Assembly (NCBI GenBank): GCA_017467305.1
Contig: JAFTSM010000071.1
Location: forward strand, 42,096 to 106,095
Origin: Candidatus Gastranaerophilales bacterium
GTDB taxonomy: Bacteria > Cyanobacteriota > Vampirovibrionia > Gastranaerophilales > Gastranaerophilaceae
DNA: 64,000 nucleotides
Reading direction: 5' to 3'
A model generated the notes under the pieces. It was not told where the DNA came from. It did no database searches and was given only the letters and a program-made list of their open reading frames with translations. Positions 1,827 through 61,174 of the stretch are shown here, one piece after another (the first letter of the stretch is position 1; each line of letters starts with the position of its first letter). Position numbers and translations under genes: made by a program.

Positions 1827-1940
1827 TTAAACTCTTCCTATATGTTTATATAAAAAAATTTTTGATTTTGAATTGCTAAATAGCAATTTTTCCCTGTGTT
1901 TGCTTTTATATAAATAGGTAAAGTAATAAGGTATGAATAG

Positions 1941-1967
1941 GTAGGACATTGAAATAGTCCTACTTTT
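1941..1967 (+). terminator. Terminator-like hairpin in the leader of the 1992 gene
   Basis: GTAGGAC (1941-1947) and GTCCTAC (1956-1962) form a perfect 7-bp stem with a 9-base loop followed by TTTTTATTTT. It points along the plus strand but no plus-strand gene ends nearby, so it is either a leader attenuator for the gene starting at 1992 or the end of a short RNA. A weaker hairpin (AATTGCTA/TAGCAATT, 1871-1888) precedes it. Confidence 0.5.
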
Positions 1968-1991
1968 TATTTTGTTTGATAAAATGTTTTT

Positions 1992-4411: not shown

Positions 4412-4560
4412 TTAAACATACAAAACCTTCCATTGCCAATTGTTTAAAGTAGAAAATACTTTAAAATTGTTATTTTTTCTATAAATTATTTATATATTTT
4501 AACAAAATTAATTTTGTTTCTTGTAAAATAATAACAATGACGTAGAGAGGGATATAATTA

Positions 4561-5556
4561 ATGTCTTTAAATGCATATTTGGGTATAGATGTTGGCTCGG
4601 TTACAACAAAGGCTGCATTAGTTGATGAAAATGGCAAATTTATCGATGGCTTTATGACTAGAACTGCAGGAAAACCAGTTGTGGCTGTTCAAACATCATT
4701 AAAAAATTTAAAAGCACAAGCAAAACAAGAGTACAATATTTTAGGAGTTGGTACAACTGGTTCTGGTAGGAATTTAGCTGGTGCATTAGTTGGTGCAGAT
4801 GTTGTAAAAAATGAAATTACTGCGCATGCTGTTGCTGCTAGTACGTATGTTCCTGGTGTTCAAACTATTTTAGAAATTGGTGGACAAGATAGTAAAATTA
4901 TTATCTTACGTGACGGTATTGTTACAGATTTCGCAATGAATACTGTTTGTGCAGCTGGTACTGGCTCGTTTTTAGACCAACAAGCTTCTAGATTAAATGT
5001 TCCAATCCAAAATTTTGGTGAATTAGCATTGAAGTCTAAATCTCCTGCAAGAATTGCTGGTAGATGTGGTGTTTTTGCTGAGTCTGACCTTATTCATAAA
5101 CAACAATTAGGCTATCCTGTTGAAGATTTATTATATGGTCTTTGCCAAGCTTTAGTTAGAAACTATTTGAGTAATTTAGCTTTAGGAAAAGAAATTCTTC
5201 CTATAGTTACATTCCAAGGTGGTGTTGCAACAAACTCTGGCATGGTAAAAGCTTTTGAAGAAGCTTTAAATACAAAAGTTGTAGTTCCAGATAATCATCA
5301 AACAATGGGAGCGATTGGTGCTGCACTTCTTGCTATGGAGAACCATCAATTCAATGAAAAACCAACAACATTTAAAGGATTTAGTGTTGGTGAAATTGCA
5401 TTTAATTCATATACAAATCAGTGCTCTAGCTGTTCTAATAATTGTGAAGTTATTACAATTGTTGAAGGTGACGTTACATCAACTGAGTTGAATAATAAAC
5501 AAGATAAGATTATTGCTCGTTGGGGCGGAACTTGTGGAAGATGGGATATAGGTTAA
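4561..5556 (+). CDS. BadF/BadG/BcrA/BcrD-family ATPase (2-hydroxyacyl-CoA dehydratase activator type)
   Basis: A 331-residue ASKHA-fold ATPase. Residues 7-16 (LGIDVGSVTT) form the phosphate-1 loop and 64-70 (GTTGSGR) and 106-110 (IGGQD) are further family blocks. C130 in TVCAAGTGSFLD and C169 in GRCGVFAESD are the residues that in HgdC-type activators hold one [4Fe-4S] cluster between two subunits. The C-terminus adds C287, C290, C294 and C324, as seen in the longer activase relatives. In the family, ATP hydrolysis drives one electron onto a partner dehydratase or reductase. No partner subunit lies beside it, so the true substrate is unknown. GAGAGGG precedes the ATG. Confidence 0.88.
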   Translation: MSLNAYLGIDVGSVTTKAALVDENGKFIDGFMTRTAGKPVVAVQTSLKNLKAQAKQEYNILGVGTTGSGRNLAGALVGADVVKNEITAHAVAASTYVPGVQTILEIGGQDSKIIILRDGIVTDFAMNTVCAAGTGSFLDQQASRLNVPIQNFGELALKSKSPARIAGRCGVFAESDLIHKQQLGYPVEDLLYGLCQALVRNYLSNLALGKEILPIVTFQGGVATNSGMVKAFEEALNTKVVVPDNHQTMGAIGAALLAMENHQFNEKPTTFKGFSVGEIAFNSYTNQCSSCSNNCEVITIVEGDVTSTELNNKQDKIIARWGGTCGRWDIG

Positions 5557-5578
5557 AACACCAATAAACAAAATATTA

Positions 5579-5608
5579 AAAGCTCGTTTCAAAAAACGAG
5601 CTTTTTTT
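5579..5608 (+). terminator. Intrinsic terminator after the CoA-activase gene
   Basis: AAGCTCGTT and AACGAGCTT pair around a short A-rich loop and are followed by seven T. It begins 22 bases after the stop codon at 5556. Confidence 0.85.
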
Positions 5609-5702
5609 ATTAAGTAATGTAAACAAATACGCTCTTTTATTTAAGTTTCTTGCTTATTCAACCGATACAGTTAATACAACATATATAAAGGAGAAAATAA
5701 CA

Positions 5703-6575
5703 ATGGGACTAGCAGCATCACAAGGAAGATACCTCTGTCTTACTGCAAGAAACAGTGACTTAGTGTATGAAGGGCAACAAATTTCTCAACAAAGAATGGC
5801 TTTAGCAAAAGAAACACAAGCTGTTGCTAATGAATATAATGAAGCAATGAGCAATACTGTTATGAGAGCGCTATTGCCTGGGCAAGAATCTCAACAATTA
5901 ACTTATGATTTACTTACTAACCAAGACCCTCTTACTGGTTTATGTATGAGAGTGGTTGACTTGGATGGTAACGTTGTTATTCCAGGTGAATATCTTGAAA
6001 TTACAGAAGTTGTTGGTGAAGGTGAAGAACAAACAAAGACAACTAGTGTTGTTACATCTTCTTCTGACTTCGTTAACAGATATATGTCTGATTTAGTTGA
6101 TGGTGATACAGCTTTAAAATTAAGTATGAAATCATTAACAGAAGTTAGTGATTATTATAATCAAACATTTACAGATACAGGAATTACAACAAGAGTTGTA
6201 GATAAATCAAATTCTAATATCGTACAAGACGGTGAAAAAGTTACAACTGACCCATTTTGTTCTGACCCAGAATATTTGCAAGAAATGTTGACAACTGGTC
6301 AATATCTATTGCAACAAGCCGGCGCAAAAGGTGTATGGGAAGAGTTTGTATGGCAAGGTTCATCTGCGATTTCTGAAGAATATGATACAACTGATGACGC
6401 AGCAGCTGAAGCTAAATATGAATCAGCAATGGTTGAACTTCAAAGAAAAGATAAACTTTTAGAATTGCGTCTAGAACAAGTTCAAACTGAACAAAGTGCA
6501 GTTGAAAAAGAAATGGAATCTGTAAAAGATATTATTGGTAAAAATATCGAAAATGGATTTAAAACTTTTGCTTAA
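5703..6575 (+). CDS. Uncharacterised conserved protein with MGLAASQ-type N-terminus
   Basis: A 290-residue acidic protein behind a strong AAGGAG ribosome-binding site. The N-terminus MGLAASQGRYLCLTARNSD followed by a glutamine-rich helix (about residues 20-55) is a pattern I associate with proteins that recur in gut Gastranaerophilales genomes. The middle (95-190) is beta-rich and acidic. The last 60 residues (YESAMVELQRKDKLLELRLEQ and onward) form a heptad-like coiled coil. The helical-beta-helical layout with amphipathic ends recalls exported filament or secretion-substrate proteins, but no signal peptide is present and this is speculation. It is monocistronic, with terminators on both sides. 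Confidence 0.7.
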   Translation: MGLAASQGRYLCLTARNSDLVYEGQQISQQRMALAKETQAVANEYNEAMSNTVMRALLPGQESQQLTYDLLTNQDPLTGLCMRVVDLDGNVVIPGEYLEITEVVGEGEEQTKTTSVVTSSSDFVNRYMSDLVDGDTALKLSMKSLTEVSDYYNQTFTDTGITTRVVDKSNSNIVQDGEKVTTDPFCSDPEYLQEMLTTGQYLLQQAGAKGVWEEFVWQGSSAISEEYDTTDDAAAEAKYESAMVELQRKDKLLELRLEQVQTEQSAVEKEMESVKDIIGKNIENGFKTFA

Positions 6576-6626
6576 ACAGCTGAACAGTAAAGGGATATGT
6601 TTTTCTTATTATATATGTTGTTTTAT

Positions 6627-6656
6627 GGCTAATCTTTAAAATGGAGATTAGCCTTT
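6627..6656 (+). terminator. Intrinsic terminator after the 5703 gene
   Basis: GGCTAATCT (6627-6635) and AGATTAGCC (6645-6653) form a perfect 9-bp stem with a 9-base loop, followed by a short TTT run. Confidence 0.7.
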
Positions 6657-6716
6657 CCGTTTATAAATCAATTAATTTAAAAGTATGATTTCTCTTAATT
6701 CCTTTGCTCGTATGAT

Positions 6717-6744
6717 TTGTTTAATATTTATAATGTGGTATGAT
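6717..6744 (+). promoter_or_regulatory. Candidate sigma-70 promoter for the 6781 gene
   Basis: TTGTTT, a 16-base spacer and TATGAT end 36 bases before the ATG at 6781. Match quality is moderate. Confidence 0.35.
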
Positions 6745-6780
6745 AATTGAACGTTAGTTATAAGAGAAAATAGGTTCTTG

Positions 6781-8997
6781 ATGCAACTTTGTGAAGTTAA
6801 GAATGATATAGCTAAAATAGTTTATAATCCTGCAGAAAACCATTTGCTTCCTTCTGATTTTTTGCTAATTGAGGACTTAAATCAAAAATTAATTGCTCAA
6901 GTAGTCAATATTTCAACAACAGATGAGCCTGATAATAACATTGCAGATATTCGTTTGTCTCTTGCAATTGATAAAGAAGATAACTTGTCATATTACAATG
7001 GTTATATTCCTTCTCGTACATCAAAGATTTTGTACATTAATCCAGATGAGATAATGGAGTTAATTAAAGGCTCTGGAGATACTATTTACTTCGGAAATTT
7101 GTCTAATCATTCTGATTGTTTTGTTAAGCCTTCTATATCATTTATTAACGATAAGGTTTATATTCAATCGGATAGAGATGATAAGACTAAAACTGTTGTT
7201 CAAAATATGGTTTCTGAACTATATCAAAAGAAAAAGAAAGTTGTTCTTTTGGATTTTGATGGTCGTTATAACTCAATATACAATGTTCCACGCTTAAAAG
7301 TTTCTGATACTTTTAAATTACCTTTAAATATTGAGGCTTTTAATACTATCTTGGAATATGATATTGTTGACTGTCCTTTAGAAGATAAAGCTGTTATTCA
7401 AAGTATTGTTTTAGAATTAAGAGAGTATATAAATACATTAGAAAATAAGTTTCTGCCATTTACTCTTTTTAGAAATGTTGTAGATAATGAGTTTATGGCT
7501 AATCCTATCTCTGGATTAATGCTTTTACGAAACAAATTATGGTTATATGCTCAAGAGAGTATTTTTGCTGAAAGTAAAAGTCATTTTGACTTGATTAATA
7601 ATATCTTAGAAAAACAAGATGTATTAGTTATTGATGCCTCTACATTGGATGAAAAATGGCATAAGTTTACTATACAAACTTTAGTTGGATTAATACAAAA
7701 GCATTGTTATTTAGTTCTTTCTTTGAACGATGTTCCAATGGATAAAAAATCAATAATATCACTATACAATACACCAAATATTATACCGATTGTATCTACA
7801 TCATACGATAGTAATTATAGGGCATTATTGAAATCTGTTTGTAAAAATCAAATTTTATTCAAGCCAGCATATTTGATAAATGATGAAGAAGCGTATAATG
7901 CTCTACTTCCAAAAATGAATTCTGGTGAGTTTATTTTATATGGTGAATCAACCTTGTATTTACCAATGGTTTTAGAATTACAATCTTTTAATTCTTCTAC
8001 TTCTGAAGATGTTATTCAAAATGAAATAAAAAAAGACGTTGATAAATTTTTGAGTCAACCAAAGTCGTTGCTTCCTCAAGATACTGTTTTAAAACAAGAT
8101 GTTGATACTGTTGTTGCAACAGCTTCTAAAACAGCAGAAGAAACAATAGAAAATTTAGTTGATGATTTAGAAGATGACGATTTGGCGTTCCTTGATGATC
8201 AAAATATTGCAAATGAAACTATAACAATCGATGATATTAGAAAACCAAAATCAGTACAGCCTGTTTCTGAAGAACAATATGATATCTTTGTTCCAATGGG
8301 AGTTAGTTATTCAGAGCCAGAATCAATATTGAATGAAGATGTTGATGATTATAATAAGGCCAGCGTTCTAGATAGTATTGATTCGGATTTGGAATTAATT
8401 AATAATCAAGAGAGCCTTGAAATACAAACTATTCAAGATAATTCTGAAAATTTAGAAGAGTTACTTACTGATGTAACAATATCTTCTGGTGATGATGAAG
8501 GTATTATTCTTGGTGATGTTGATAATGATGATATTGTTTCTGATGTTTTAGCTGAAATATCTAGTGAATATGTTATTCTTGTTCAAGAAAATGAAGAAAC
8601 TAAAGAAGAAGTTGATGTTGATGCGTTATTACAAGATGATTTGTTGTTAGATAATAATGTTCCTCAATCTGCAGATGATAAAGATGATGGTGAGAAGAAT
8701 ATTGATATTGAATTAGAGTCTGATGAACAAGAAATCCAACCTCCTCCAATAAAAGAGCAAATAAATACTAAATCTTCAACAACTCTTCCAGAGTATGAGT
8801 CCGGAAACTTATCGGAAGTTATGATAAATGATGTTCCTTTTAAAATTGGAGAAAAAATTTTTCATCCAAAATATGGAGAAGGAGTAATTGAAGGTTTTGC
8901 AAACTATAGCAATAAAATTTTGTTCTGTACAATCGATTTTGACGGTCAGAGAAAAATTTTAGACCCTAGAATTTCTTCAATGCAAAAAATACAATAG
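6781..8997 (+). CDS. HerA-like ATPase-fold protein with acidic linker and C-terminal Tudor-like domain
   Basis: A protein of about 738 residues. I chose the ATG at 6781 over the adjacent TTG because AGG sits seven bases before it. The N-terminal 90 residues look like the HAS-type beta barrel of HerA ATPases. Residues about 125-400 carry beta strands such as KVVLLDFDGRY (Walker-B-like) and VLVIDAS, but I see no clean P-loop GKT/S, so ATPase activity is doubtful. Residues about 420-660 are a long Asp/Glu-rich disordered linker. The last 55 residues (KIGEKIFHPKYGEGVI and FDGQRKILDP) match the Tudor-like tail of UvrD/PcrA helicases, which binds RNA polymerase. Inferred: a nucleic-acid- or polymerase-associated adaptor. 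Confidence 0.6.
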   Translation: MQLCEVKNDIAKIVYNPAENHLLPSDFLLIEDLNQKLIAQVVNISTTDEPDNNIADIRLSLAIDKEDNLSYYNGYIPSRTSKILYINPDEIMELIKGSGDTIYFGNLSNHSDCFVKPSISFINDKVYIQSDRDDKTKTVVQNMVSELYQKKKKVVLLDFDGRYNSIYNVPRLKVSDTFKLPLNIEAFNTILEYDIVDCPLEDKAVIQSIVLELREYINTLENKFLPFTLFRNVVDNEFMANPISGLMLLRNKLWLYAQESIFAESKSHFDLINNILEKQDVLVIDASTLDEKWHKFTIQTLVGLIQKHCYLVLSLNDVPMDKKSIISLYNTPNIIPIVSTSYDSNYRALLKSVCKNQILFKPAYLINDEEAYNALLPKMNSGEFILYGESTLYLPMVLELQSFNSSTSEDVIQNEIKKDVDKFLSQPKSLLPQDTVLKQDVDTVVATASKTAEETIENLVDDLEDDDLAFLDDQNIANETITIDDIRKPKSVQPVSEEQYDIFVPMGVSYSEPESILNEDVDDYNKASVLDSIDSDLELINNQESLEIQTIQDNSENLEELLTDVTISSGDDEGIILGDVDNDDIVSDVLAEISSEYVILVQENEETKEEVDVDALLQDDLLLDNNVPQSADDKDDGEKNIDIELESDEQEIQPPPIKEQINTKSSTTLPEYESGNLSEVMINDVPFKIGEKIFHPKYGEGVIEGFANYSNKILFCTIDFDGQRKILDPRISSMQKIQ

Positions 8998-13176: not shown

Positions 13177-13992
13177 GTGTCTTTAGAATTAGATAATAAA
13201 CAAGGTTTAATAGCAGGTGATGGATTATTACCTGTTCAGTTAGCAAAAAATGCAAAGGAAAATGGATTTGAAGTTGTTGCAATTGCTTTATCACCAGATA
13301 ATAGAAATGAATTAAAAAAATATTGTTCAAAAGTTTATGATTCTGCACCTGGTGAACTTTTGAAAATTAAAAATATACTTGAAACTGAACAAATAAAACA
13401 GTTAACCTTTATTGGTAAAGTATCAAAAAGCCTTGTGGTAAGAAGACCAAGATTTGACTCTTTAGCTGTTGAATTTTTAAAGCAAGCTACAAGATTGAAT
13501 GATGATGCAATTATGCTATTTTTAGTTGCAGAATTGGCAAAACTAGGAATTACAGTTCTTGACCAAACAATTTTTATTAAAAACTTGATGGTTCCACGTG
13601 GTGTTTTAGGAAAAATTCAACCAACTGAAGCTCAAATTTCTGATGTTGAATACGGCTATAAGATTGCTAAAGAAATGGGAGATTTAGATATTGGTCAATC
13701 TGTTGTTATTAAAGATAGAATGATTATGGCAATTGAAGCTATTGAAGGTACTGACAAATGCATTAAACGTGGCTGTAAATTAGGTAAAAAAGATGCTGTA
13801 GTTGTTAAGGTTGCTAAACCAAAGCAAGATAAACGTTTTGATATTCCTGCTTTTGGTTTGAGGACTTTAAAAACTATGAAAAAATATAAGGCAAAATTAA
13901 TTGCAGTAGAAGCAAATGAAACTATTTTAGTTGATGCTCAAAAAACAATTGATTATGCAAATAAAAATGGCATTATTGTAATGGCAGTGTAG
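13177..13992 (+). CDS. lpxI: UDP-2,3-diacylglucosamine pyrophosphatase LpxI
   Basis: About 271 residues, DUF1009/LpxI family. The enzyme hydrolyses UDP-2,3-diacylglucosamine to lipid X and UMP in lipid A synthesis at the inner membrane. Recognisable blocks are GLIAGDGLLPVQLAKNA near the N-terminus, a central DAIMLFLVAELAKLGI stretch and the C-terminal GQSVVIKDRMIMAIEAIEGTD. I choose the GTG at 13177 because GAGAGGG sits seven bases before it. An in-frame ATG at 13162 would add five residues but has no ribosome-binding site. lpxB follows after a single base, which supports the assignment. Confidence 0.9.
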   Translation: MSLELDNKQGLIAGDGLLPVQLAKNAKENGFEVVAIALSPDNRNELKKYCSKVYDSAPGELLKIKNILETEQIKQLTFIGKVSKSLVVRRPRFDSLAVEFLKQATRLNDDAIMLFLVAELAKLGITVLDQTIFIKNLMVPRGVLGKIQPTEAQISDVEYGYKIAKEMGDLDIGQSVVIKDRMIMAIEAIEGTDKCIKRGCKLGKKDAVVVKVAKPKQDKRFDIPAFGLRTLKTMKKYKAKLIAVEANETILVDAQKTIDYANKNGIIVMAV

Positions 13993-50516: not shown

Positions 50517-51611
50517 TTATAATAATTCCTTTATTTTTTTTGCACAGTCATAGCAATAAACACATTCTACTCCGCACACGGAAGAACAGAAATGTCCATT
50601 TTCAATGAAATGTGAAATTTTAGGAAGATATGGTTTTATTTCTTTTATTTTGATTTTTATTTCTTTTCTTGACATTATATAATGATTTAAAAATCTAAAT
50701 TCTTCATCTTTTATATAGTTAGGATCATCAATGCCTTTTAAGTACATTTTATATATTTTGAGGTAGTTTCCATTTGAAAATTCAGGACAATTTCTACCAA
50801 CTAATTTGAATTTATTAATGCCAATATCAGAATATGATTCTATATCCCAAGGATAAATAATTGTTGCTTTGCAAATTTCATCAAGCAAATTTGAGTAACT
50901 ATATTTTTTACAAGTTGAATTGAAAAATTCAGCAGTTAATTTATTATCCCTTTTTAAATATGTTTCTGTTTGTATGTATGGTAGACTTAAATTGTGTTGA
51001 TATCTAAGCGGACATCCAAAAATACAACCTTCATTTACCATTAATTCTATTTCTAAATTCGGATATAAACTTTTTAAATTTTTTAACAACTTAAAATTTC
51101 TGTTTACATTATAAGAAGGAACAATACTTTCTATATATGGTTGTATTTTTAAAAAATTTATATATTGATTTATTTCTGTATATTCTAGAGAAGTAGAAAC
51201 ATTTATTTTAAATTTTGGGTATTTAATTCTAATATATTCCATTAATTGGATATTTGTGATTCTTAATTTATTACATCCAGACTTCTGTAATTTTTTTAAT
51301 AATTTATCAAGTTTTTCAAGTTGTTTATCAAGTAAATTGCTTTCAGAAAAAAATGGTTTTGGTGTATTGAGAAGATAAACAAGTTCTAAATCATTTTTTT
51401 GAGTATATTCAAATAAATGTTCCCAATCAGAATAATTGGTTTTAATATGATTTGTTGTTCTGAGTTGTTCAAAACCAGAGTTGTCAGAACAATTATTCGG
51501 TAAAGAAAAATATACCTCTGATATTTTACTTTTTTCAACTTCTTTATTTATTTCAACTAAATCATCAATAAATCTAGTTTCAAATGGCATTGGCACAGAA
51601 AATTTGTACAT
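50517..51611 (-). CDS. U32 peptidase-like TIM-barrel protein with cysteine-rich C-terminus
   Basis: 364 residues from the ATG at 51611, which has GGAAGAG upstream and lies one base after the previous stop; the longer open frame overlaps that gene and is rejected. The central IELMVNEGCIFGCPLRYQHN is the hallmark of the U32/UbiU-UbiV family, in which cysteines bind an Fe-S cluster. The late segment contains CSSVCGVECVYCYDC, another possible metal site. U32 relatives take part in oxygen-independent hydroxylation and other tRNA or quinone modification. Tight pairing with a radical SAM gene suggests joint modification of one substrate, unknown here. Confidence 0.68.
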   Translation of the reverse strand: MYKFSVPMPFETRFIDDLVEINKEVEKSKISEVYFSLPNNCSDNSGFEQLRTTNHIKTNYSDWEHLFEYTQKNDLELVYLLNTPKPFFSESNLLDKQLEKLDKLLKKLQKSGCNKLRITNIQLMEYIRIKYPKFKINVSTSLEYTEINQYINFLKIQPYIESIVPSYNVNRNFKLLKNLKSLYPNLEIELMVNEGCIFGCPLRYQHNLSLPYIQTETYLKRDNKLTAEFFNSTCKKYSYSNLLDEICKATIIYPWDIESYSDIGINKFKLVGRNCPEFSNGNYLKIYKMYLKGIDDPNYIKDEEFRFLNHYIMSRKEIKIKIKEIKPYLPKISHFIENGHFCSSVCGVECVYCYDCAKKIKELL

Positions 51612-51612
51612 A

Positions 51613-52611
51613 TTACTCTTCCGATAAAATATAATTTTTAATTTTTTTAATTTTTGAAAGTTTATAGGCAAAACAAATACCACATTTATTAAGTATTCTC
51701 ATTTTGCAATTTTCACACATTGGTATAACATAACTTATTTTGGCAAATATATCAATTTTGGCATAATAATATCTTTTTAATTGTTCTAAATTATCAAAAT
51801 CTGAGATATTTATTTTTGAAAAATCTGAAAGTCCAAAACATCTTATTGCAGATAAATCAGGGAAAATATCAATAACAGGATTACATGTTCTACAAGAACT
51901 TATTGGGCTATCAACATCGTATTTTTCTGCTAATTGTTTTATTTTTACAAGTAAAATTTTTTCTTCATTTGTGAATATGCAGTCTGGAAAACTATTACAA
52001 TCGTATGAAGGAACAATGTTTCTAATAAGACAAGCATTAAAAAAATCAAATAAAAGAGATTTTTGTTTTTTGAACTCTTCTATTATATTACTATTATTAA
52101 CTTTTTTATCATTTTGAATTGCATATGAAAATCGTAAATCATTGCGATTTATAAGTTTTAACAGTTCAAAAATATAAGCAAAATTTGAATTCCATAGGTT
52201 TAACCCAAGTTTAAAAGTTAAATTTGCCTTTTTGAGTAGTAATAAATTGTTTTTCAGTTTTACATAGTTTTCCCCTAATTGTTCTGGAGAATTACAATTT
52301 AATAATAACGAATATTTCTTTGGGTTTAAGTGATTAATATATTTATCAATTTCAATGCCATTTGTATATATTATTACATCTTTAACTTTATTATTTTTAT
52401 CTAAAATTTTAATAAGTTCTCTAAACTTGCTATATAAAGTTGGTTCCCCACCAATTAAACCAATTCTAGATGTTCCATCTTTTGTTATAAAGTTAATAAC
52501 TTTAATTAGGTTTTCAATTGAAAATTCTTCTTGATTTTTGTTGACAAATTCATTTGCAAAACAATAAGGACACTTCAGATTGCACTTCTTTGTCAAAAAT
52601 ATATTCGCCAT
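51613..52611 (-). CDS. Radical SAM protein with SPASM-like C-terminal cysteines
   Basis: 332 residues from the ATG at 52611, with GGAG eight bases upstream. C10, C14 and C17 in KKCNLKCPYC bind the SAM [4Fe-4S] cluster. RIGLIGGEPTLY is the glycine-rich SAM-binding strand. The C-terminal third holds CRTC, CFG and CENCKMRILNKCGICF, enough cysteines for auxiliary clusters in a SPASM/twitch arrangement. Family members modify peptides or proteins. It is translated one base before the U32-like gene, so the pair works together. No precursor-like peptide lies next to it on this strand. Confidence 0.8.
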   Translation of the reverse strand: MANIFLTKKCNLKCPYCFANEFVNKNQEEFSIENLIKVINFITKDGTSRIGLIGGEPTLYSKFRELIKILDKNNKVKDVIIYTNGIEIDKYINHLNPKKYSLLLNCNSPEQLGENYVKLKNNLLLLKKANLTFKLGLNLWNSNFAYIFELLKLINRNDLRFSYAIQNDKKVNNSNIIEEFKKQKSLLFDFFNACLIRNIVPSYDCNSFPDCIFTNEEKILLVKIKQLAEKYDVDSPISSCRTCNPVIDIFPDLSAIRCFGLSDFSKINISDFDNLEQLKRYYYAKIDIFAKISYVIPMCENCKMRILNKCGICFAYKLSKIKKIKNYILSEE

Positions 52612-52729: not shown

Positions 52730-53596
52730 ATGCGATATAATTACTCTTTTTTTGAAAATTTACCAGAAAAACTTTATCCTGCCTATATGTCTAAATTTTA
52801 TAATGAAATCATGAAAGAAAAACTTGATTTAAGAAAACCAAAGACATTTACACAAAAAATACAGTGGTTAAAATTGTACGATTCCCCCCCCCTAAAAACA
52901 TATTGTGCTGATAAACTTACTGTTATTAACTATGTTCGAGAAAGAGTTCCAGAATTAAAATTTGCCCAAATTTACTCAACTGCTAGTTGCTTTGAAAATT
53001 TGGATTTTTCTAATTGTCCAAAAAAGTTTGTTATAAAGACTAATCATGCTTGTAAACAAATGATTAGAGTTGAAAACAAAGATGTTTTATTTTCCACAGA
53101 AAAAGGTAAAAAAGATTTATTAGAATATAAAAAAATTATAAATGAATACCTTTCAAAACATTTTGCTTTTGATTATGTATTTGAGTTACATTACAAAAAT
53201 ATTCCTCGTAGGGTTTTTTTACAAGAATATATAGAGTCTGAAGATGAAAAAGATGGATACTTGGAATATAAAGTAAATTGTTTTAATGGAAGAGCCGTAT
53301 ATATGGAATACTATAAGAATAATGAGTGTTTTGTGTGCGACAGAAATCAAAAACAATTAGATTTTACCTATCTTCCATTTGAAAAAATGACAAATTTCAC
53401 TTTTCCTAAAAATTTTGATAAAATGATAAATTTTGCTGAAATTTTATCAAAGGATTTTAAATTTGTTAGAATTGATTTTTTTGAACATAACAATGAATTA
53501 TATTTTGGTGAAATGACGTTTACTCCATATAGTGGATTTATGAGGTTTTCACCACCTGAATATGATTTAGAAATTGGGAAATTACTAAAAATATAG
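52730..53596 (+). CDS. TupA-like ATP-grasp protein with C9 tract
   Basis: A 288-residue protein of the TupA-like ATP-grasp group (named from teichuronic acid synthesis). The pattern MKEKLDLRKPKTFTQKIQWLKLYD, FVIKTNHACKQMI (ATP-binding lysine), VFLQEYIE and FVRIDFFEHNNELYFGEMTFTPYSGF runs in family order. The C9 tract falls at codons 52-55 (SPPL), before the ATP-binding parts, so frameshifts would abolish the protein. The family is usually linked to surface glycans, but here the stop is 8 bases from a small precursor-like peptide gene and the same pairing recurs at 58787-61174. A peptide ligase or tailoring role is therefore possible. Confidence 0.82.
   Translation: MRYNYSFFENLPEKLYPAYMSKFYNEIMKEKLDLRKPKTFTQKIQWLKLYDSPPLKTYCADKLTVINYVRERVPELKFAQIYSTASCFENLDFSNCPKKFVIKTNHACKQMIRVENKDVLFSTEKGKKDLLEYKKIINEYLSKHFAFDYVFELHYKNIPRRVFLQEYIESEDEKDGYLEYKVNCFNGRAVYMEYYKNNECFVCDRNQKQLDFTYLPFEKMTNFTFPKNFDKMINFAEILSKDFKFVRIDFFEHNNELYFGEMTFTPYSGFMRFSPPEYDLEIGKLLKI
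52884..52892 (+). repeat. Homopolymer tract of nine C
   Basis: Nine C encoding consecutive proline codons CCC CCC, which is unusual codon choice for this AT-rich genome. It lies inside the first fifth of the TupA-like gene. Confidence 0.85.
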
Positions 53597-53604
53597 GAGG
53601 TTTT

Positions 53605-53778
53605 ATGTTTGATAATTTAAAGAATTTTATAAAAGAAAAATCTGATGAAAAAGCAATAGAAGAGTACGAAAAATCTATTGAAAACTCTGATGTGCTAAAT
53701 GAGTTTGATAATGATTTTTATGATTGGAGCAAATTGTCAGCAACCTGCAAAGGTCCAGGTCTTTGGTATTATTGTTAG
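53605..53778 (+). CDS. Small precursor-like peptide (57 residues), candidate RiPP substrate
   Basis: An ATG with AGGAGG four bases upstream opens a 57-codon gene. The first 40 residues are an acidic, helical leader (starts MFDNLKNFIKEK; many Asp, Glu, Lys). The end is LSATCKGPGLWYYC, with C48 and C57 bracketing a Gly-Pro-aromatic segment. That leader/core contrast is typical of ribosomally made, post-translationally modified peptides. The stop codon TAG is followed with no gap by the ATG of the glycosyltransferase-radical SAM fusion, and the ATP-grasp gene ends 8 bases before. No known precursor family is recognised. The modification chemistry is not predictable from sequence. Confidence 0.72.
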   Translation: MFDNLKNFIKEKSDEKAIEEYEKSIENSDVLNEFDNDFYDWSKLSATCKGPGLWYYC

Positions 53779-55749
53779 ATGATTGAGATTTGTTATACAT
53801 TTGACAGCAATTATATACAACACGTTGCAGCATCTATTCATTCATTGTTTAAATATCATAATAAAGATGAAATAAAATTTCATCTTTTATATAGCAGTGT
53901 GTCAAAATCGAAACTAAAAGTTTTGACAAAATGGATCGACATACAAGGTTATGACTACAAATTGTACGCTATAGAACCCCAAAAATTTAATAATTGTCCT
54001 TTAAAATTAAATGATAGGTTGACTAGAGTTGCGTATTACAGAATTGCATTATCAAGTGTTTTGCCTAAAGAATGCACAAAGGTTTTATATTTAGACCCAG
54101 ATACTATAATACAAAGTAATCTGTCAGATCTATTTGATACTGATATATCATCATATTCTTTGGGTGCAGTATGTATGTTAGATAATTATTTTAACTCTGG
54201 CGTCTTATTGATTAATTTAGATTATTGGAGAAAACATAATATTCAAGATATGTTTTTTCAATCAATTTCTTCGAATTCTTCAGAAATTGATTGTCATGAT
54301 CAAGATGTTTTAAATAATGTTTTGGCGGGAACTTGGTTCAAATTACAACTAAAATATAATGCTGGAAATAATATATTTAGAATACTAAATCGTTCTAAAG
54401 CAAATAGTGAACCTCTTGTATATAAAGATGAAGAAATAAGAGAAGCAAAAGAAAATCCTGTAATTATTCATTATGCTGGTTCTTTTCATTATAAACCTTG
54501 GTATAAAAATTGTATTCATTGGTGGCAAAATTTATATCTTGAAAATTTACGAGAAACACCATATAAAAACTATAAATTGAAGTACCATTACATATTAGAT
54601 TTAATGAAGAAAGAAGAATGTCCATATCACGATATTCATCAGGATATATATAATATCGTAAAAGATTCTTTTTCAATTAAAAAAAAATATTCACCTTGGA
54701 ACTTATTTGTAAGAAAAATGTATTTGAATAGGAAAAAAAGAAATTTTCTTTTTGATATACTGTCGCTGATTTTATTTTATAAGAAAACTTTCAAGTTTAA
54801 TACATTGCAAAAAGTGGAGCCAGTTCAGGTAATAATAGATATTAGTGGTTATTGTAATGCAAAATGTCCATTTTGTATTCGACAATTATCTGAATGTAAA
54901 TCACAGATGTTTATGAAGAAAGAAATTTTTTATGAAATAATAAAACAGATAAAACAAATTAAATCAATTAAAGTTATATCCTTATCTGCTTATGGAGAGC
55001 CACTGTTGCATCCTGATTTTGACGAGTTTGTTCATTATCTTAGAAAATTGAAATATAATGTTCTCGTTACGACAAATATGTCGCTGGCTCACAAACATTT
55101 TGATAGTTTACTTGAATTGACACATATTATGTTTTCTGTTGAAGGTTGGGATAAAGAATCATATGAAAAATATCGTCAAAATTTATGTTTTGAAAAAGTA
55201 TATAGTAACATTAAGGAATTTGATAAATTAGTTAATGAACGAAGACTCAGAAGAAGACACACACCAAGCAGAACAATTAATTTTTTATTAACAAAGAAAT
55301 CTAAAATTAAAAAATTCTTAAGTTTATGGCAACCATATTCTGATCTTATTCATTTTGGGTTAATGAAAAATCCTTTGGTTTGGAACAATAGAACAATGAA
55401 ATTTGAGACAGTGGAGTCTTCGCTGTTAAAAGATGAAATTATCCCTTTATTAAACAAAAATAATACAAATTCTTGTATTCAACCGTTTAATGTTATATCA
55501 ATAAATCCAAATGGTGATGTTAAACTCTGTTGTAATGATTCTAATTGTAATTTTGACTTTGGTTCTTATAAAAATATTAAAAAATCTTTTTTTTCAAACA
55601 AGTTTTTTAATACAATTAGACAAGAATTAGCAAGAAAAAAAATATATATTTGTGAAAATTGTAGTTGGAACTACGATACTTCCATTGATTATTTAAAAAA
55701 GTATCTTCCTGAACTAAATGAAATAAGTATAAATAACAAATATCTGTGA
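53779..55749 (+). CDS. Fusion of GT8 glycosyltransferase and radical SAM/SPASM enzyme
   Basis: 656 residues. Residues 1-270 are a GT8 domain: ICYTFDSNYIQHVAASIHSL at the start, D106-P-D108 in LYLDPDT for metal and nucleotide-sugar binding, FNSGVLLINLDYW, HDQDVLNNVLAG and HYAGSFHYKPW. Residues about 335-650 are a radical SAM domain with C359, C363 and C366 in CNAKCPFC and SLSAYGEPLLHPDF. The SPASM-like tail has CIQPFNVISINPNGDVKLCC, then CENC. The start codon directly abuts the precursor stop, so translation is coupled. Inferred: one protein that both glycosylates and radically modifies the same peptide. A frameshift-created fusion is unlikely because the linker is long and in frame. Confidence 0.85.
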   Translation: MIEICYTFDSNYIQHVAASIHSLFKYHNKDEIKFHLLYSSVSKSKLKVLTKWIDIQGYDYKLYAIEPQKFNNCPLKLNDRLTRVAYYRIALSSVLPKECTKVLYLDPDTIIQSNLSDLFDTDISSYSLGAVCMLDNYFNSGVLLINLDYWRKHNIQDMFFQSISSNSSEIDCHDQDVLNNVLAGTWFKLQLKYNAGNNIFRILNRSKANSEPLVYKDEEIREAKENPVIIHYAGSFHYKPWYKNCIHWWQNLYLENLRETPYKNYKLKYHYILDLMKKEECPYHDIHQDIYNIVKDSFSIKKKYSPWNLFVRKMYLNRKKRNFLFDILSLILFYKKTFKFNTLQKVEPVQVIIDISGYCNAKCPFCIRQLSECKSQMFMKKEIFYEIIKQIKQIKSIKVISLSAYGEPLLHPDFDEFVHYLRKLKYNVLVTTNMSLAHKHFDSLLELTHIMFSVEGWDKESYEKYRQNLCFEKVYSNIKEFDKLVNERRLRRRHTPSRTINFLLTKKSKIKKFLSLWQPYSDLIHFGLMKNPLVWNNRTMKFETVESSLLKDEIIPLLNKNNTNSCIQPFNVISINPNGDVKLCCNDSNCNFDFGSYKNIKKSFFSNKFFNTIRQELARKKIYICENCSWNYDTSIDYLKKYLPELNEISINNKYL

Positions 55750-55758
55750 GAGGAAATA

Positions 55759-56427
55759 ATGAAATATTTTTTTGTATATCCGCCTTTAATAATGAATTTT
55801 TCACCAATTATTGGGATACCTCAATTAGTTAGTATCCTAGAAAATAATAATGTCAAATCAAAGATCTTTGATTTGAATTCTGATTTCTTTTCAAATTATA
55901 TAAATAAAGATTTTTTTGAAAAATTTATTACTAAAAATAATTATAAGTTAAGTGATGAATTTCTATCTGAATTTCCAAAGGACTTTCAAGACATAATATG
56001 CAAAAATAAATATACAAATAGCGTTTTAGAAGGAAAAATAAGTAAATTTACTGAAAATATAGATTTTTGTAATTATATTTTGAAAAATAAAAAATACTTT
56101 TATAATCAAATTTTATCACATTATGCTATCAGTATTATCTCTGATATAGTCGATATAACGTTACATAATGAGAGAGTTTTAATTGAAAAATTTTTACCAG
56201 GGTTTTTAAGTTTTTTTTCTAATAATAAAAGACAAGAACATTCACTAGATGTGGGATTATTTTTAAAATATGTACTTTCTCATGCAAATCCTTTTTATGA
56301 ATATATTCAATCTGCTGCAAATAAGATTGTTGAAGAAGAACCAGATTGTATTGGTATTTCAATTAATCTGTATAGCCAATTTTTTACTGGTTTGTTATTG
56401 GGATATCTAATAAAGAAAAAAAAATAA
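55759..56427 (+). CDS. B12-binding radical SAM protein, N-terminal part (frameshifted)
   Basis: 222 residues from an ATG with GAGG upstream, 9 bases after the fusion gene. The start KYFFVYPPLIMNFSPIIGIPQLVSILE is the Rossmann-type strand-loop of cobalamin-binding domains in RiPP-maturation and BchE-like radical SAM enzymes. The later EEEPDCIGISINLYSQFFTGLLLG matches the next conserved strand of that domain. The frame stops inside an A-run (A9, 56416-56424). Removing one A joins it to the following frame as KKNKKIHINIGGSVFS, which is exactly the expected B12-domain continuation. It is therefore half of one gene. Confidence 0.72.
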   Translation: MKYFFVYPPLIMNFSPIIGIPQLVSILENNNVKSKIFDLNSDFFSNYINKDFFEKFITKNNYKLSDEFLSEFPKDFQDIICKNKYTNSVLEGKISKFTENIDFCNYILKNKKYFYNQILSHYAISIISDIVDITLHNERVLIEKFLPGFLSFFSNNKRQEHSLDVGLFLKYVLSHANPFYEYIQSAANKIVEEEPDCIGISINLYSQFFTGLLLGYLIKKKK

Positions 56428-56497
56428 AAAAATACATATTAATATTGGGGGTTCTGTATTTAGTACTTCATATAATGAATTTACAAATCTTTCGGAA

Positions 56498-57568
56498 TTG
56501 ATTGGTGTTTTTTTTGATACTATTACATATGGTAATGGGGATAGTACAGTACTTGAAATTATTGAGTACATAAAAGGGGAAAAAAATATAGAAGATATTC
56601 ACAATATTATATATTTTGATAAAAATAAAAATACTTTAAAAGTAAATAAAAGAGATAATGGTCTAAAAATTAGTGATTGGCCGGTACCGTCATTTAGTGG
56701 GATTGATAAAAAATTGTTTTTGAGTCCAGAGTTAGTTTTGCCCATACAGTCTTCAGTCTCTTGCTATTGGGGAAAATGCAAATTCTGTGTTGCAAGTCGT
56801 GATAGAAAATATCAAACAAAAACAGCAGAACAAATTATTTCTGAAATTGAAATACTAATAAAAAAATATAATACCAAATATTTCTACTTTTGGGATAATG
56901 CTATTTCACCAACATTTTTAAAAGTCTTTTCTGATTTGTTATTAAAAAGGAAAATTAAAATAATATATTCTATATATGCTCGTTTTGAAAAAGAATTTGA
57001 TACTGAATTGTTAAAAAAACTTAGAAAATCTGGATGTATAAAAATAAATTGGGGAATTGATTCCGTTTCAAAAAGGATGATTAGTTTTATTGATAAAGGC
57101 ATAGAACTAGATAATGTAAAAAAAATATTAAAAAAATCAAAAAAAGCAAATATTTCTAACACAGTTTCTATAATTTTAGGTTATCCAACAGAAACATATG
57201 ATGATTTAAACGAAAATAAACATTTCTTTATAAAAGAAAAAAACAATATAGATGTGGTATTAATTGCTCCAGAAGTTCTTTTTTTAGAAGGTTCTATCTT
57301 TACAAAAGATATAGAAAAGTATCAATCTCTAATTTTAACAAATTTATCTGAACGAATTAAAATAGCTGATGAAATAAAACATTATTATGAAAGTAAATCT
57401 GAATATTGTAATTTTATTGCAGCACATAATTTATTATATGAAGATTATTATTCAAAACCCTATAATAAAATTAAATTAAAAATATATTCTATAATGATGA
57501 AAAACCAGTTTGTTTTTAGACTTTTTATAAATATGTATAAAAAGAAATTTAATAATGGTTTATTATAA
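56498..57568 (+). CDS. B12-binding radical SAM protein, C-terminal part (frameshifted)
   Basis: 356 residues from the TTG listed; the frame is open back to the A9 run near 56423, so the TTG is not a real start unless the gene has split. C89, C94 and C97 in SCYWGKCKFC form the C-x4-C-x2-C radical SAM cluster in the form seen in B12-type peptide-modifying enzymes. YFYFWDNAISPTFL, INWGIDSVSKRMISFIDKG and SIILGYPTETYDD are the usual later strands. If restored, the whole protein is about 600 residues and would likely methylate or otherwise alter an unactivated carbon in the precursor. Confidence 0.75.
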   Translation: MIGVFFDTITYGNGDSTVLEIIEYIKGEKNIEDIHNIIYFDKNKNTLKVNKRDNGLKISDWPVPSFSGIDKKLFLSPELVLPIQSSVSCYWGKCKFCVASRDRKYQTKTAEQIISEIEILIKKYNTKYFYFWDNAISPTFLKVFSDLLLKRKIKIIYSIYARFEKEFDTELLKKLRKSGCIKINWGIDSVSKRMISFIDKGIELDNVKKILKKSKKANISNTVSIILGYPTETYDDLNENKHFFIKEKNNIDVVLIAPEVLFLEGSIFTKDIEKYQSLILTNLSERIKIADEIKHYYESKSEYCNFIAAHNLLYEDYYSKPYNKIKLKIYSIMMKNQFVFRLFINMYKKKFNNGLL

Positions 57569-58786: not shown

Positions 58787-59686
58787 TTATTTGTATTTTA
58801 AGTATAATTTATGCCCATAATATAAATCAAAAATATTTGGCTTGAAATTTAAAAATCCAGAAGCTGGTGTGAAAGTCATTTCACAAAAATAAAGTTCGTT
58901 ATTACACTCCATGTAATCTATTCTTACAAAATTAAAGTCTTTAGATAAAATTTCTGAATATTCAATCATTTTATGTAGAAATTTAGGCTTTGGAAAATAA
59001 TCTAAATTTCCCCATGAAATATCAAATTGTAACTTATCCCAATTTGTACTATAAACACACTGCTTTATTGATTCATTTGGATTTGCTGTTCTAATTTGTA
59101 TAAATTCTGGAACACCACTAAAGCAATAAACTTCATAGTTGTTTATTCCAACGGTTTTATCTATTTGTACAAGAAGCTCTTCAGCAAAAATTTTTGGAGT
59201 TATATTTTCATAATGCATTTCATAATATGACCAATATGCATAATTTATTTTTAGAACATTGTCGTAAGATTTCCTATAAAAAATTAATTCATCTTTGCTA
59301 ATCTTAAACTTATCTTCAACATACCAATTTGTTTTCCAAGCGTGATTGGTTTTTAAAATAAAAGATGTAGGAAGAGATTCAAAATCAATATCTTTAAAAC
59401 ATTTCCCTACTTGATAAACTTTTGCAAATTTTAATTCTGGTAGAATAGTGGATATATATTTTTTTACTTCAAGCTTATCAGATAATAACGTCTTTTGGCG
59501 ATTTTTTTCATTTAGTTTTAAATACTGAATTTTTTCACTAAGTCTTAATGGTCTTTCAAAATCTAGATGTTTGTTCAAAATATTCTTATATTTTTGCTGT
59601 AAAACAAATTGCCAAAAGAACTTTGGTATAGTTCTAAATGATAAATAGCGTAGCAGATATTTTATGCTTAAATAATCACTATTCAT
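58787..59686 (-). CDS. TupA-like ATP-grasp protein (second copy)
   Basis: 299 residues, paralogue of the protein at 52730. Shared blocks are LDFERPLRLSEKIQYLKLNEKN, FILKTNHAWKTN, FAEELLV and FVRIDYMECNNELYFCEMTFTPASGF. It lacks the poly-C tract. Its ATG lies inside the end of the radical SAM gene (8-base overlap), so both are translated together. In both copies an ATP-grasp gene sits in the same transcription unit as a small precursor-like peptide and a SPASM-type radical SAM gene, which argues for a role in that pathway rather than in general capsule synthesis. Confidence 0.8.
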   Translation of the reverse strand: MNSDYLSIKYLLRYLSFRTIPKFFWQFVLQQKYKNILNKHLDFERPLRLSEKIQYLKLNEKNRQKTLLSDKLEVKKYISTILPELKFAKVYQVGKCFKDIDFESLPTSFILKTNHAWKTNWYVEDKFKISKDELIFYRKSYDNVLKINYAYWSYYEMHYENITPKIFAEELLVQIDKTVGINNYEVYCFSGVPEFIQIRTANPNESIKQCVYSTNWDKLQFDISWGNLDYFPKPKFLHKMIEYSEILSKDFNFVRIDYMECNNELYFCEMTFTPASGFLNFKPNIFDLYYGHKLYLKYK

Positions 59687-61007
59687 ATTCTTTTGCTATA
59701 TTCATTTTAATTTTTGCATTTTTGCAAAGAATATTGACTTTTGTATGTTCGTCTGTACATTTCCCAGGACAAAAGTTGCAATATTTGCAGTAATCATATT
59801 TAAAACATTCAGTGAAATCTTTTCTCTTGATACTAGACCACTTATTTAATGGCGAATTTTTATCATTGCTTTCCCAAAGTTCTTTTAATGTGATTTTACG
59901 TAGGTTTGCAAAATTAAAATTTGCTGTAGGACAAGATGTGACATTTAAAAATGGGTCAATATCCAATGTGGTTCGTCCGGACAAACATGGAAAGTCATTT
60001 AAGAATTTTTCATTAATTACATTATTAACTTTAATTAACTTATTTTTAATTTGAAATCTATAAAGTTTTTCAAGCTGTTTTTCTTCTATTTGAGTATATA
60101 AATTTGAGTAATCAGGATTTGGAAGAAGACACTCATCTACTCCATAGCGGAAGTTGTGAGTTATAGCATAGTTCACTACATCTTGATAATTATTTGCGTT
60201 ATATTTTGTAAGAAATATTTTTACTTCAACTGGAACATTGTTTTCTTCTAACTTTTCAATAACTTTTAGTGTTTTATGGTGAGAACCTTTTACACGTGTA
60301 ATTTTTTCATGAATATCTGAATTCATACTATATAAGCTTAATCCAATATAATGAGGATAAAGCTTTATAATTTCATCAAAGAATTTGGGGTCATCATACA
60401 TTTTTTGCCCATTTGTGAAAAATACTAATTCAATTCTTTTTGATTTAATGTACTTTGCAATATCTAAAAAATCATCAATTAAAGTGCATTCTCCTCCAGA
60501 TAAAACAATTTGAGTAACGCCTAATTCATAAGCTTCATCAATTATTGGTTTTATATCTGAAAAAGAAATCTGGACATCGTTTACTGTTTTGTCATTAAAA
60601 CAGTGAACACAGTTTAAATTGCATTTATAAGTAACATCAAATTGAATACGTGTTAATTTTTGCTCTTTTATATTCTGTTGTGACCAAAGTTTTAGAAAAT
60701 CAGAATCTTTACTTACAAAACTATTTTGTCTTTTTTGTTGTATATCTTTTTGTTCTTCTAATGTTAAAAATAATCCCTTTTGTTTTAATAATAAAAGAAA
60801 ATCTGATAATTCATTTTCTAAATTCTTTTCTTTTGCATAGGAAAGAATTTGACCCATATTTTTTGAGTTTAAAATAACATACCACAAATCACTTGAATCT
60901 TTTTGTAACCAAAACAGTTCAAATGTTTTTCTATTGGAAATATATGCTCTTGATTTCTCTGTTTCGAAGTTAAGAACATTTGATGAAATCCATTCTGGAA
61001 CAAACAT
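59679..61007 (-). CDS. Radical SAM/SPASM peptide maturase with N-terminal PqqD-like domain
   Basis: 442 residues. Residues 1-100 resemble a PqqD-type peptide-recognition (RRE) fold: an N-terminal strand region followed by SDFLLLLKQKGLFLT. The radical SAM core has C129, C133 and C136 in YKCNLNCVHC and QIVLSGGECTLI. The SPASM tail contains CLSGRTTLDIDPFLNVTSC, then CFKYDYCKYCNFCPGKC, enough for two auxiliary clusters. This is the architecture of enzymes that form thioether or carbon-carbon links in RiPPs. Its ATG is 11 bases after the stop of the cysteine-rich peptide gene, which is its probable substrate. Confidence 0.87.
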   Translation of the reverse strand: MFVPEWISSNVLNFETEKSRAYISNRKTFELFWLQKDSSDLWYVILNSKNMGQILSYAKEKNLENELSDFLLLLKQKGLFLTLEEQKDIQQKRQNSFVSKDSDFLKLWSQQNIKEQKLTRIQFDVTYKCNLNCVHCFNDKTVNDVQISFSDIKPIIDEAYELGVTQIVLSGGECTLIDDFLDIAKYIKSKRIELVFFTNGQKMYDDPKFFDEIIKLYPHYIGLSLYSMNSDIHEKITRVKGSHHKTLKVIEKLEENNVPVEVKIFLTKYNANNYQDVVNYAITHNFRYGVDECLLPNPDYSNLYTQIEEKQLEKLYRFQIKNKLIKVNNVINEKFLNDFPCLSGRTTLDIDPFLNVTSCPTANFNFANLRKITLKELWESNDKNSPLNKWSSIKRKDFTECFKYDYCKYCNFCPGKCTDEHTKVNILCKNAKIKMNIAKEYE

Positions 61008-61018
61008 TAGACCTCAAA

Positions 61019-61174
61019 CTAGCAACAGCATGTTCCACAACAAGTTTGTACTGATGTAAGTGCCCTACTTGAACAACCTCCCATTGAAACAATAATAGTA
61101 CCTTCTTTATAAAAACCTAACTTTTTTGAGGAAAAATTTCTATTTTTTTTACTATTTGATAATTTAATTTTCAT
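61019..61174 (-). CDS. Cysteine-rich precursor-like peptide (51 residues), candidate RiPP substrate
   Basis: A 51-codon gene with GGAG eight bases before the ATG. The leader is basic (MKIKLSNSKKNRNFSSKKLG), then a GTIIVSMGG segment and a C-terminus SVQTCCGTCCC. Cysteines are C34, C45, C46, C49, C50 and C51: six in total, five within the last seven residues. It directly precedes the radical SAM/SPASM maturase and shares its promoter. The cysteine cluster fits a radical-formed thioether peptide. It does not match the spacing of the known SCIFF family, which also has six cysteines. A metal-binding peptide is an alternative. Confidence 0.75.
   Translation of the reverse strand: MKIKLSNSKKNRNFSSKKLGFYKEGTIIVSMGGCSSRALTSVQTCCGTCCC

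Follow-up and report, generated by a model that had tools for sequence, protein, structure and literature searches.

The 57-codon gene lodged between a TupA-like ATP-grasp gene and a gene for a fused GT8 glycosyltransferase and radical SAM/SPASM protein very probably encodes a RiPP precursor. It is found in the window, i.e. the whole 64,000-nucleotide stretch of a Candidatus Gastranaerophilales contig analysed here. In the same proposal the TupA-like ATP-grasp enzyme serves as the shared maturase for a family of such peptides that extends across the genus, and the window locus is a type III cassette with further tailoring enzymes. The observations behind this proposal are the conserved linkage of ligase and peptide genes, the conserved leader and hypervariable core of the type I peptides found elsewhere in the genus, and the conserved residues and predicted fold of the ATP-grasp enzymes.

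Organization of the window cassette

A preliminary description of this region had reported the 57-codon frame with a strong ribosome-binding site, a peptide end TCKGPGLWYYC, a TupA-like ATP-grasp gene 8 bases ahead, a GT8-radical SAM/SPASM fusion following with no gap, and a B12-type radical SAM gene 9 bases further on. The layout bears out nearly all of this: the ATG is preceded by TATAGGAGGTTTT, the peptide end is read directly from the sequence, and both flanking genes have the expected spacing and Pfam matches (Table 1). The last gene does open with an ATG at the described spacing, but it is spread over two frames rather than one. The enzyme set was also drawn too narrowly, as the cassette continues on the minus strand (50517-52611) into genes for a U32-like protein and a second radical SAM protein, and its full form in relatives additionally includes YcaO. 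The leader of the peptide ends in EFDNDFYDWSKLSA, with the probable leader/core cut placed just before TCKGPGLWYYC. The N-terminal ~45 residues, with the conserved block EFDxDFYxW, would recruit the enzymes, and the last ~11 residues would be the core.

Table 1. Features of the two cassettes in the window
Feature	Position	Strand	Evidence
TupA-like ATP-grasp ligase	52730..53596	+	PF14305, E 4e-29; invariant residues; model pLDDT 93.2, predicted ATP-grasp ligase fold
57-aa putative precursor peptide	53605..53778	+	ORF with AGGAGG site; same-slot relatives in G021 (two) and G053
GT8 glycosyltransferase fused to radical SAM/SPASM, 656 aa	53779..55749	+	PF01501, E 1.4e-34; Radical_SAM, E 8.5e-15; SPASM, E 1.7e-4
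B12 radical SAM protein, N-terminal part, first frame, 222 aa	55759..56427	+	32% identity to G053 B12 radical SAM; no Pfam match at E 0.01
B12 radical SAM protein, C-terminal radical SAM part, shifted frame	56498..57568	+	PF04055, E 6.7e-16; TIGR03975, E 9e-24, below cut-off
Radical SAM protein 2, encoded divergently from the first ATP-grasp ligase	51613..52611	-	PF04055, E 8.3e-15; ORF listed from 52638, with the probable ATG at 52611
U32-like protein	50517..51611	-	Seven invariant Cys (C196, C200, C234, C342, C346, C350, C353) in eight sequences
Second peptide resembling a precursor (51 aa), with a basic leader and the Cys-rich end GGCSSRALTSVQTCCGTCCC	61019..61174	-	Short ORF located upstream of the genes for radical SAM and TupA
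Radical SAM protein, second cassette	59679..61007	-	PF04055, E 3.3e-22
TupA-like ATP-grasp, second cassette	58787..59686	-	PF14305, E 1.9e-31; sister clade of the first TupA in the TupA tree

Conservation of the type III peptide

Relatives of the window peptide were recovered in two other genomes at three loci, two in G021 (45% identity, E 1.3e-12) and one in G053 (33%, E 1.2e-4), in each case in the slot between a TupA-like ATP-grasp gene and the GT8 and radical SAM genes. The type III peptide is thus found in three genomes only, and the alignment, which comprises just three distinct sequences, places 10 of its 12 invariant positions ahead of the core. The gene set in G053 and G021 reads YcaO-TupA-peptide-GT8-radical SAM-B12 radical SAM-radical SAM 2-U32. 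There GT8 and the radical SAM protein are encoded by two separate, adjacent genes, the complete fusion being confined to the window genome among the 195 genomes. These three are the only other loci in which GT8 adjoins this radical SAM protein, and because the leader and the placement of the peptide are conserved at all of them, the possibility raised at the outset, that the frame might degenerate to random codons in close relatives, does not apply. A second possibility raised then, that fusion homologues occur without a neighbouring short peptide, holds only for the radical SAM half, whose relatives in G003, G102, G100, G034, L162 and L164 lack TupA, such a peptide and a directly adjoining GT8. 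A weak GT8 match lies two genes on from the relative in L164.

Peptide homology, together with the background frequency of short frames given below, rules out a chance frame. Weaker peptide matches were not counted: in a first search, many of the hits between E 5e-4 and 1 lay inside long frames, and in a later search each of the ten hits between E 6.8e-5 and 0.0095 fell in a frame of at least 674 residues. None of the peptides tried matched a known precursor family in Pfam or NCBIfam above cut-off, the best sub-threshold hit, of GP17 to the G021 peptide (E 0.0013; 19.3 bits against 25), being taken as chance.

Genus-wide type I peptides beside TupA-like ligases

A divergent type of TupA-like ATP-grasp has multiplied in this genus, with short peptides encoded downstream that combine a conserved acidic leader with a hypervariable Cys/Tyr-rich core (type I). 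The initial proposal of a peptide-modification module with its own precursor, supported by the same-slot peptides, was hence too narrow, the constant enzyme across the genus being the TupA-like ATP-grasp rather than GT8 or this radical SAM protein. A profile of the type I leader scored 127 places, which are spread over 24 of the 195 genomes and belong without exception to one genus, with up to two dozen precursors in a single genome; the remaining 18 of the 42 genomes of the genus had no place at E 0.001. Sixty-four of the 127 places lie within 500 bp of one of the 110 TupA places used in this comparison, all 64 downstream and on the same strand. Among the 63 places that lack a TupA place within this distance, 35 belong to G009 and G022, whose TupA genes were only partly scored, and 8 of the other 28 start within 200 bases of the beginning of a contig. 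A further 18 TupA places of the same genus were added afterwards, none of them on the contigs of these 28 places outside G009 and G022.

At the loci examined, with TupA genes labelled by BLAST to five chosen references, an SD-preceded short frame lies directly downstream of 30 of 51 TupA genes, against 35 of 518 unlabelled genes by the same permissive SD pattern; the count omits the identical TupA copies L064, L074, L097 and L098 as well as genes ending less than 260 bases from the end of a stretch. Inspection by hand, which followed no fixed rule, left ten of the 51 with no peptide (L087, L099, L104, L117, L118, L120, L133, L134, L137 and L138), L137 and L138 being high-scoring TupA genes. 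On the TupA tree, where 40 rows carry the peptide label (L079, whose peptide was recognized later, is still scored as lacking one), the label is clustered, requiring 8 changes against a shuffled mean of 24.3, with none of 500 shufflings as low. At eleven of the 30 strict TupA-peptide pairs, the genes up to three places away include no further member of the reference set; therefore the ligase, rather than its variable partners, is the common element. Minimal type I pairs include TupA with a 56-aa peptide at G029:C77 and TupA with a 64-aa peptide at G035:C23.

Among the four closest TupA pairs (71-84% identity), leaders are 48-76% identical (mean 58.6%) and cores 21-33% (mean 26.3%), no higher than shuffled cores (mean 29%). 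In the wider survey of cores, the core was taken as the part after a cut motif, or as the whole peptide where that motif is missing (10 of 29 type I peptides), which dilutes the contrast. On the whole, these loci display two features by which RiPPs are recognized, namely a short encoded precursor that adjoins modifying enzymes and is conserved across genomes, and a leader conserved more than the core.

These counts also bear on a quite different reading, in which TupA, GT8 and radical SAM proteins act on sugars in the decoration of a cell-surface polysaccharide, with the short frame accessory or fortuitous. Such a role has a precedent in the C-terminal TupA-like domain of Cj1438, which forms an amide at the C6-carboxylate of glucuronic acid in the capsule (PMC11800379, partial text), and high-scoring TupA genes and relatives of the radical SAM protein (G100, G102, L162, L164) lie, as judged by eye, among glycan-like genes. 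However, the downstream peptide is absent from all 24 high-scoring TupA genes, while the genus holds more than 100 related short peptides, half of them scored next to TupA. This, taken together with the peptide kept in its slot at the three other GT8-adjoined loci and the 11 pairs standing apart from any other labelled gene, makes action on polysaccharide highly improbable.

The ATP-grasp enzyme and its probable reaction

PF14305 is the only Pfam match of the ATP-grasp enzymes of the window and G053, and the two window enzymes exceed its curated cut-off of 25 bits with scores of 102.3 and 109.9. All 20 TupA sequences compared share K103, N105, E152, R247, D249 and E261, among them candidate nucleotide- and metal-binding residues. 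Sequence searches recovered no TupA relative among solved structures; the predicted model adopts an ATP-grasp ligase fold, with best fold matches of the D-Ala-D-Ala ligase type. Other matches include LysX, ArgX, RimK, amino-acid ligases and, as one of many ATP-grasp proteins, the graspetide ligase PsnB. We infer that the enzyme, within the preferred RiPP reading, most likely activates a carboxylate, either an Asp/Glu side chain or the C-terminus of the peptide, as an acyl phosphate, which would then be joined to an amine or hydroxyl group from within the peptide or from outside.

Two versions of this reaction differ in plausibility. Addition of an amino acid or amine to the peptide C-terminus or a side chain in the manner of LysX, ArgX or RimK, giving extended or capped peptides, is a real possibility, if short of an even chance: it accords with the fold matches to these ligases and with the amide formed by Cj1438, and it could operate via the C-terminus on cores devoid of acidic residues such as that of the window peptide, but the C-termini vary widely. 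Side-chain lactone or lactam cross-links of the kind made in microviridins, with the other enzymes as extra tailoring, appear doubtful. The carboxylate ligase fold, the match to PsnB and the many type I cores containing Asp/Glu and Ser/Thr/Lys would be compatible with such links, but the best fold matches lie elsewhere, and TupA does not appear in the main text, as partially available, of the graspetide survey PMC8939145. Moreover, TCKGPGLWYYC contains no Asp or Glu, and therefore cross-links between core side chains cannot account for the window peptide.

Proposed tailoring enzymes and the second cassette

The families of the remaining enzymes suggest further modifications, including the glycosylation and radical chemistry envisaged in the preliminary description. 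GT8 might attach a sugar to Ser, Thr or Tyr, the radical SAM/SPASM protein might form a C-H derived bond, the B12 radical SAM protein might C-methylate, radical SAM 2 and the U32-like protein might possibly carry out oxygen-independent hydroxylation, and YcaO, in relatives, might introduce a thioamide or azoline. The product would presumably be exported, with a putative role in competition or signalling, although no transporter or leader protease stood out by eye among the genes of the G053 and G021 loci. GT8 enzymes have characteristic DxD and HxxGxxKPW motifs, and the window protein contains LDPD and HYAGSFHYKPW. The U32-like protein matches the U32 family profile and fold; UbiU/UbiV, U32 proteins, are reportedly the subject of a separate study. 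Radical SAM 2 has relatives, 42-52% identical, both within the cassettes of G053 and G021 and next to other TupA/peptide pairs.

The cassettes of G053 and G021 include YcaO, the window locus lacks it, and two YcaO genes elsewhere in the window genome each lie beside their own peptide; YcaO was rejected as a marker of the system. The window also contains a second cassette (58787-61174), whose peptide resembles, by eye, those of cassettes in G000:C49, G029, G030 and G001. A PqqD domain, labelled by eye in its radical SAM protein, was dropped, the N-termini of three such proteins giving no Pfam match.

The G053 homologue of the B12 radical SAM protein is an intact 616-residue protein, to which the first and second window frames are 32% and 42% identical respectively, and the reading passes into another frame across nine A (56416-56424), a type of run in which assembly errors or slippage often arise. 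Because this gene is shifted in frame and YcaO is missing from the locus, the cassette in the window may be a reduced or decaying one. The stronger version, in which the product is no longer made, could also draw on the fusion of GT8 with the radical SAM protein, but it seems unlikely, given the position of the shift in the nine-A run and the open frames of TupA, the fusion, radical SAM 2 and U32, with conserved residues kept.

Relationship to known systems

Graspetides such as microviridin and plesiocin share the placement of a short precursor beside an ATP-grasp carboxylate ligase, but the ligase here is TupA-like and its partners are radical SAM, U32-like and YcaO proteins. The complex Branch 6 RiPP loci with YcaO/TfuA likewise combine ATP-grasp, YcaO and radical SAM/SPASM proteins (PMC8939145, partial text); they differ from the present loci in their ATP-grasp and in that the YcaO here best matches the E. 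coli YcaO model. Four cassette YcaOs have NF040716 as best NCBIfam match (E 3e-51 to 4e-61, below cut-off), and E. coli YcaO is the uL16 thioamidase (PMC13063428, partial text), whereas the cassette versions lie beside a short peptide and an ATP-grasp gene. Cj1438 shares the TupA-like ATP-grasp fold and a likely amide-forming reaction, but acts on glucuronic acid of the capsule, while the enzyme here goes with peptides. Within NCBIfam, the B12 radical SAM protein best matches the RiPP radical SAM C-methyltransferases of TIGR03975 (G053, E 1.1e-29), yet scores of 103.4 bits (G053) and 83.9 bits (second window frame) against a cut-off of 281.85 make it a non-member by that model.

In the papers searched, as partial texts, no description of such a peptide family and no described peptide product of these gut-type bacteria were found; among the matches listed, one set lacked TupA and another lacked peptidase U32, and the sole match in a further search was the capsule paper. 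We consider it somewhat probable that the system is a new RiPP class, expanded in one Gastranaerophilaceae-like genus, with the TupA-like ATP-grasp as common maturase and with hypervariable cores. Of the forms seen here the window cassette would be the most elaborate, with peptide ligation, glycosylation, radical SAM, B12 methylation and U32-type chemistry all acting on a single short peptide, joined in relatives by that of YcaO. If so, it would provide a new ligase family for ribosomal peptides, minimal two-gene loci of ligase and peptide that are directly testable, and, as a natural library, the well over a hundred precursors of these gut-type bacteria. The U32-like and E. coli-like YcaO proteins beside small peptides would offer a lead on their substrates.

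A contig search with the radical SAM half yielded seven loci (L159-L165), of which L159-L161 appear to be those of G053 and G021, and L163 that of G003. L162, L164 and L165 are new, and inspection of L162-L165 by eye showed neither a TupA label nor a short frame resembling type III. Viral contigs contained three distant radical SAM matches.

The window cassette and its counterparts in related genomes

The window lies on contig 44 of a draft genome (G000; 1.85 Mb, 89% complete). The frames claimed for its cassette are borne out by the sequence with the exception of the B12 radical SAM gene, which the preliminary description gave as one frame and which is broken by a frame shift in a run of nine A residues; error, decay and slippage are all retained as readings of its cause. 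The GT8 and radical SAM parts form a single 656-residue frame in the window, but they are two overlapping genes in G053, a member of the same family, and in G021, of the same genus; the fusion is thus local. With the fusion as query against 195 related genomes, matches were recovered in 58 at E ≤1e-20, chiefly to GT8 alone, and the radical SAM half was recovered at E ≤1e-50 in six other genomes. Two of these, G053 and G021, share the gene order YcaO, TupA-like ATP-grasp, peptide, GT8, radical SAM/SPASM, B12 radical SAM, radical SAM 2 and U32-like gene, here termed type III, whereas the four remaining loci (G003, G102, G100 and G034) have neither an adjoining GT8 nor a type III-like peptide. 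G021 carries two tandem copies 10.72 kb apart on contig 7 (L064/L065), both with an additional opposed B12 radical SAM gene inside and a split U32-like frame, and one with a truncated YcaO. Unlike these cassettes, that of the window has no YcaO; its radical SAM 2 and U32-like genes lie on the opposite strand, and 118 bases separate their start from the ATP-grasp gene. The type III peptides can be aligned over their full length, with 12 positions, including F34, D35, D37, F38, Y39 and W41, invariant among three distinct sequences; a profile of them matched only G000 and G021 among the 42 genomes of the genus that were searched. A second window cassette (type II; see table) falls outside the preliminary description, and ahead of the window on the same contig lies a possible repeat peptide (L074).

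Features located in the window and in fetched loci
Locus	Coordinates	Strand	Feature
Window	56416-56424		Nine-A run with the B12 radical SAM frame shift
Window	58787-61174	-	TupA-like ATP-grasp, radical SAM and 51-residue Cys-rich peptide
L074 (G000:C44)	13297-13587	-	96-residue frame, acidic leader-like start, SGNGL repeats
L087 (G002:C5)	1744-8562		Four tandem B12 radical SAM-like genes
L100 (G000:C28)	6771-8039		GARS-type ATP-grasp (PF01071, E 1.3e-34)
L106	downstream of 6774		Type I peptide, then TupA C-terminal fragment and shortened second leader copy
L131	7214-7708		164-residue type I peptide, two similar Cys-rich halves; U32-like gene next

Linkage of short peptides to TupA-like ligases

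In 40 additional TupA regions and the earlier TupA loci, 30 of 51 TupA genes are followed by a frame of 30-170 codons that is preceded by an SD site and begins -20 to +100 bases from the gene's stop; among the unlabelled genes in those loci the figure is 35 of 518. By a looser hand count, eleven further TupA genes are accompanied by a cassette peptide (L065, L103, L106, L110, L124, L072, L079, L080, L088, L100 and the second window cassette). Under the strict rule no peptide accompanies any of the 24 high-scoring TupA genes examined (22 from 20 new loci, at places ≥143 bits, plus L137 and L138, also counted among the 51). The score alone cannot split the two kinds, since a place at 126 bits (G016:C50) has type I peptides behind it.

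A type I profile built from 16 peptides has at least 127 places in 24 of the 195 genomes, all of one genus (24 of its 42), with the highest count, at least 24, in G022; the total is a lower bound through G009, G013 and G022. Sixty-four of the 127 are no more than 500 bp from a TupA place, all 64 downstream on the same strand, and because the profile's own 16 peptides were chosen beside TupA, independent TupA-adjoining places amount to at most 48 of 111. The arrangement at L106 looks like a decayed duplication of a ligase-peptide unit.

A quick-method tree of 73 TupA proteins, with SH-aLRT support only and two long branches flagged, places the G053 and G021 ATP-grasps with that of the window (95); this group's neighbour is the clade that holds the ligase of the second window cassette (96 for both together). 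The type I clade (100) holds 33 rows, 30 with a peptide, and a separate clade (96) unites L137 and L138 with 18 of the 22 rows labelled canonical. The peptide label, assigned to 40 rows, changes 8 times on the tree against a shuffled mean of 24.3, with none of 500 shuffles as low.

Leaders, cores and probable function

Type I leaders approximate the consensus MEx..LSxxEIxxxYxDIIExG..(L/I)A and are followed by Cys-, Tyr- and Gly-rich cores; under a script-made cut, Cys makes up 0.1% of the first 30 residues and 9.3% of the rest in 27 peptides. In four pairs at 71-84% TupA identity, leaders are 48-76% identical and cores 21-33%, which is what shuffled cores give (mean 29.2, sd 20.1; 25 peptides). 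In the full set of pairs, cores are conserved about as well as leaders wherever the TupA proteins are less than 55% identical, and one pair reaches 100% because L121 has almost no core left. Type II peptides combine basic leaders with Cys-rich ends. The longer peptide of L131 appears in the table.

Taken with the leader/core pattern and the existence of minimal ligase-peptide loci, the linkage makes RiPP biosynthesis a much more likely reading of the cassettes than glycan decoration. Among candidate ligase reactions, attachment of a small amine or amino acid would rank first, ahead of cross-linking. Since the window core is without an acidic side chain, the C-terminus is the only core carboxylate open to the ligase, if it uses one there at all; the carboxylate could instead come from a leader residue or from an external acid. 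Of the forms seen, the window cassette is the most elaborate and may also be the least intact. No description of such peptides was found in the literature searched, with most subscription papers and bioRxiv's own holdings outside it, and any claim of novelty rests on that scope.

YcaO genes and multiplication of the ligase

The lower-scoring TupA-like type has multiplied in the genus, with up to 14 matches per genome. Elsewhere in G000 two YcaO genes each adjoin a radical SAM gene and a TupA-like ATP-grasp, with a further short frame alongside. YcaO was rejected as a diagnostic marker: at 27 YcaO places from 19 same-family genomes, the inspected stretch held a TupA gene at 9. The tandem genes of L087, 26-28% identical to the G053 B12 radical SAM, lie just ahead of a YcaO gene, and in L100 the GARS-type ATP-grasp separates a TupA gene from a 47-residue acidic peptide.
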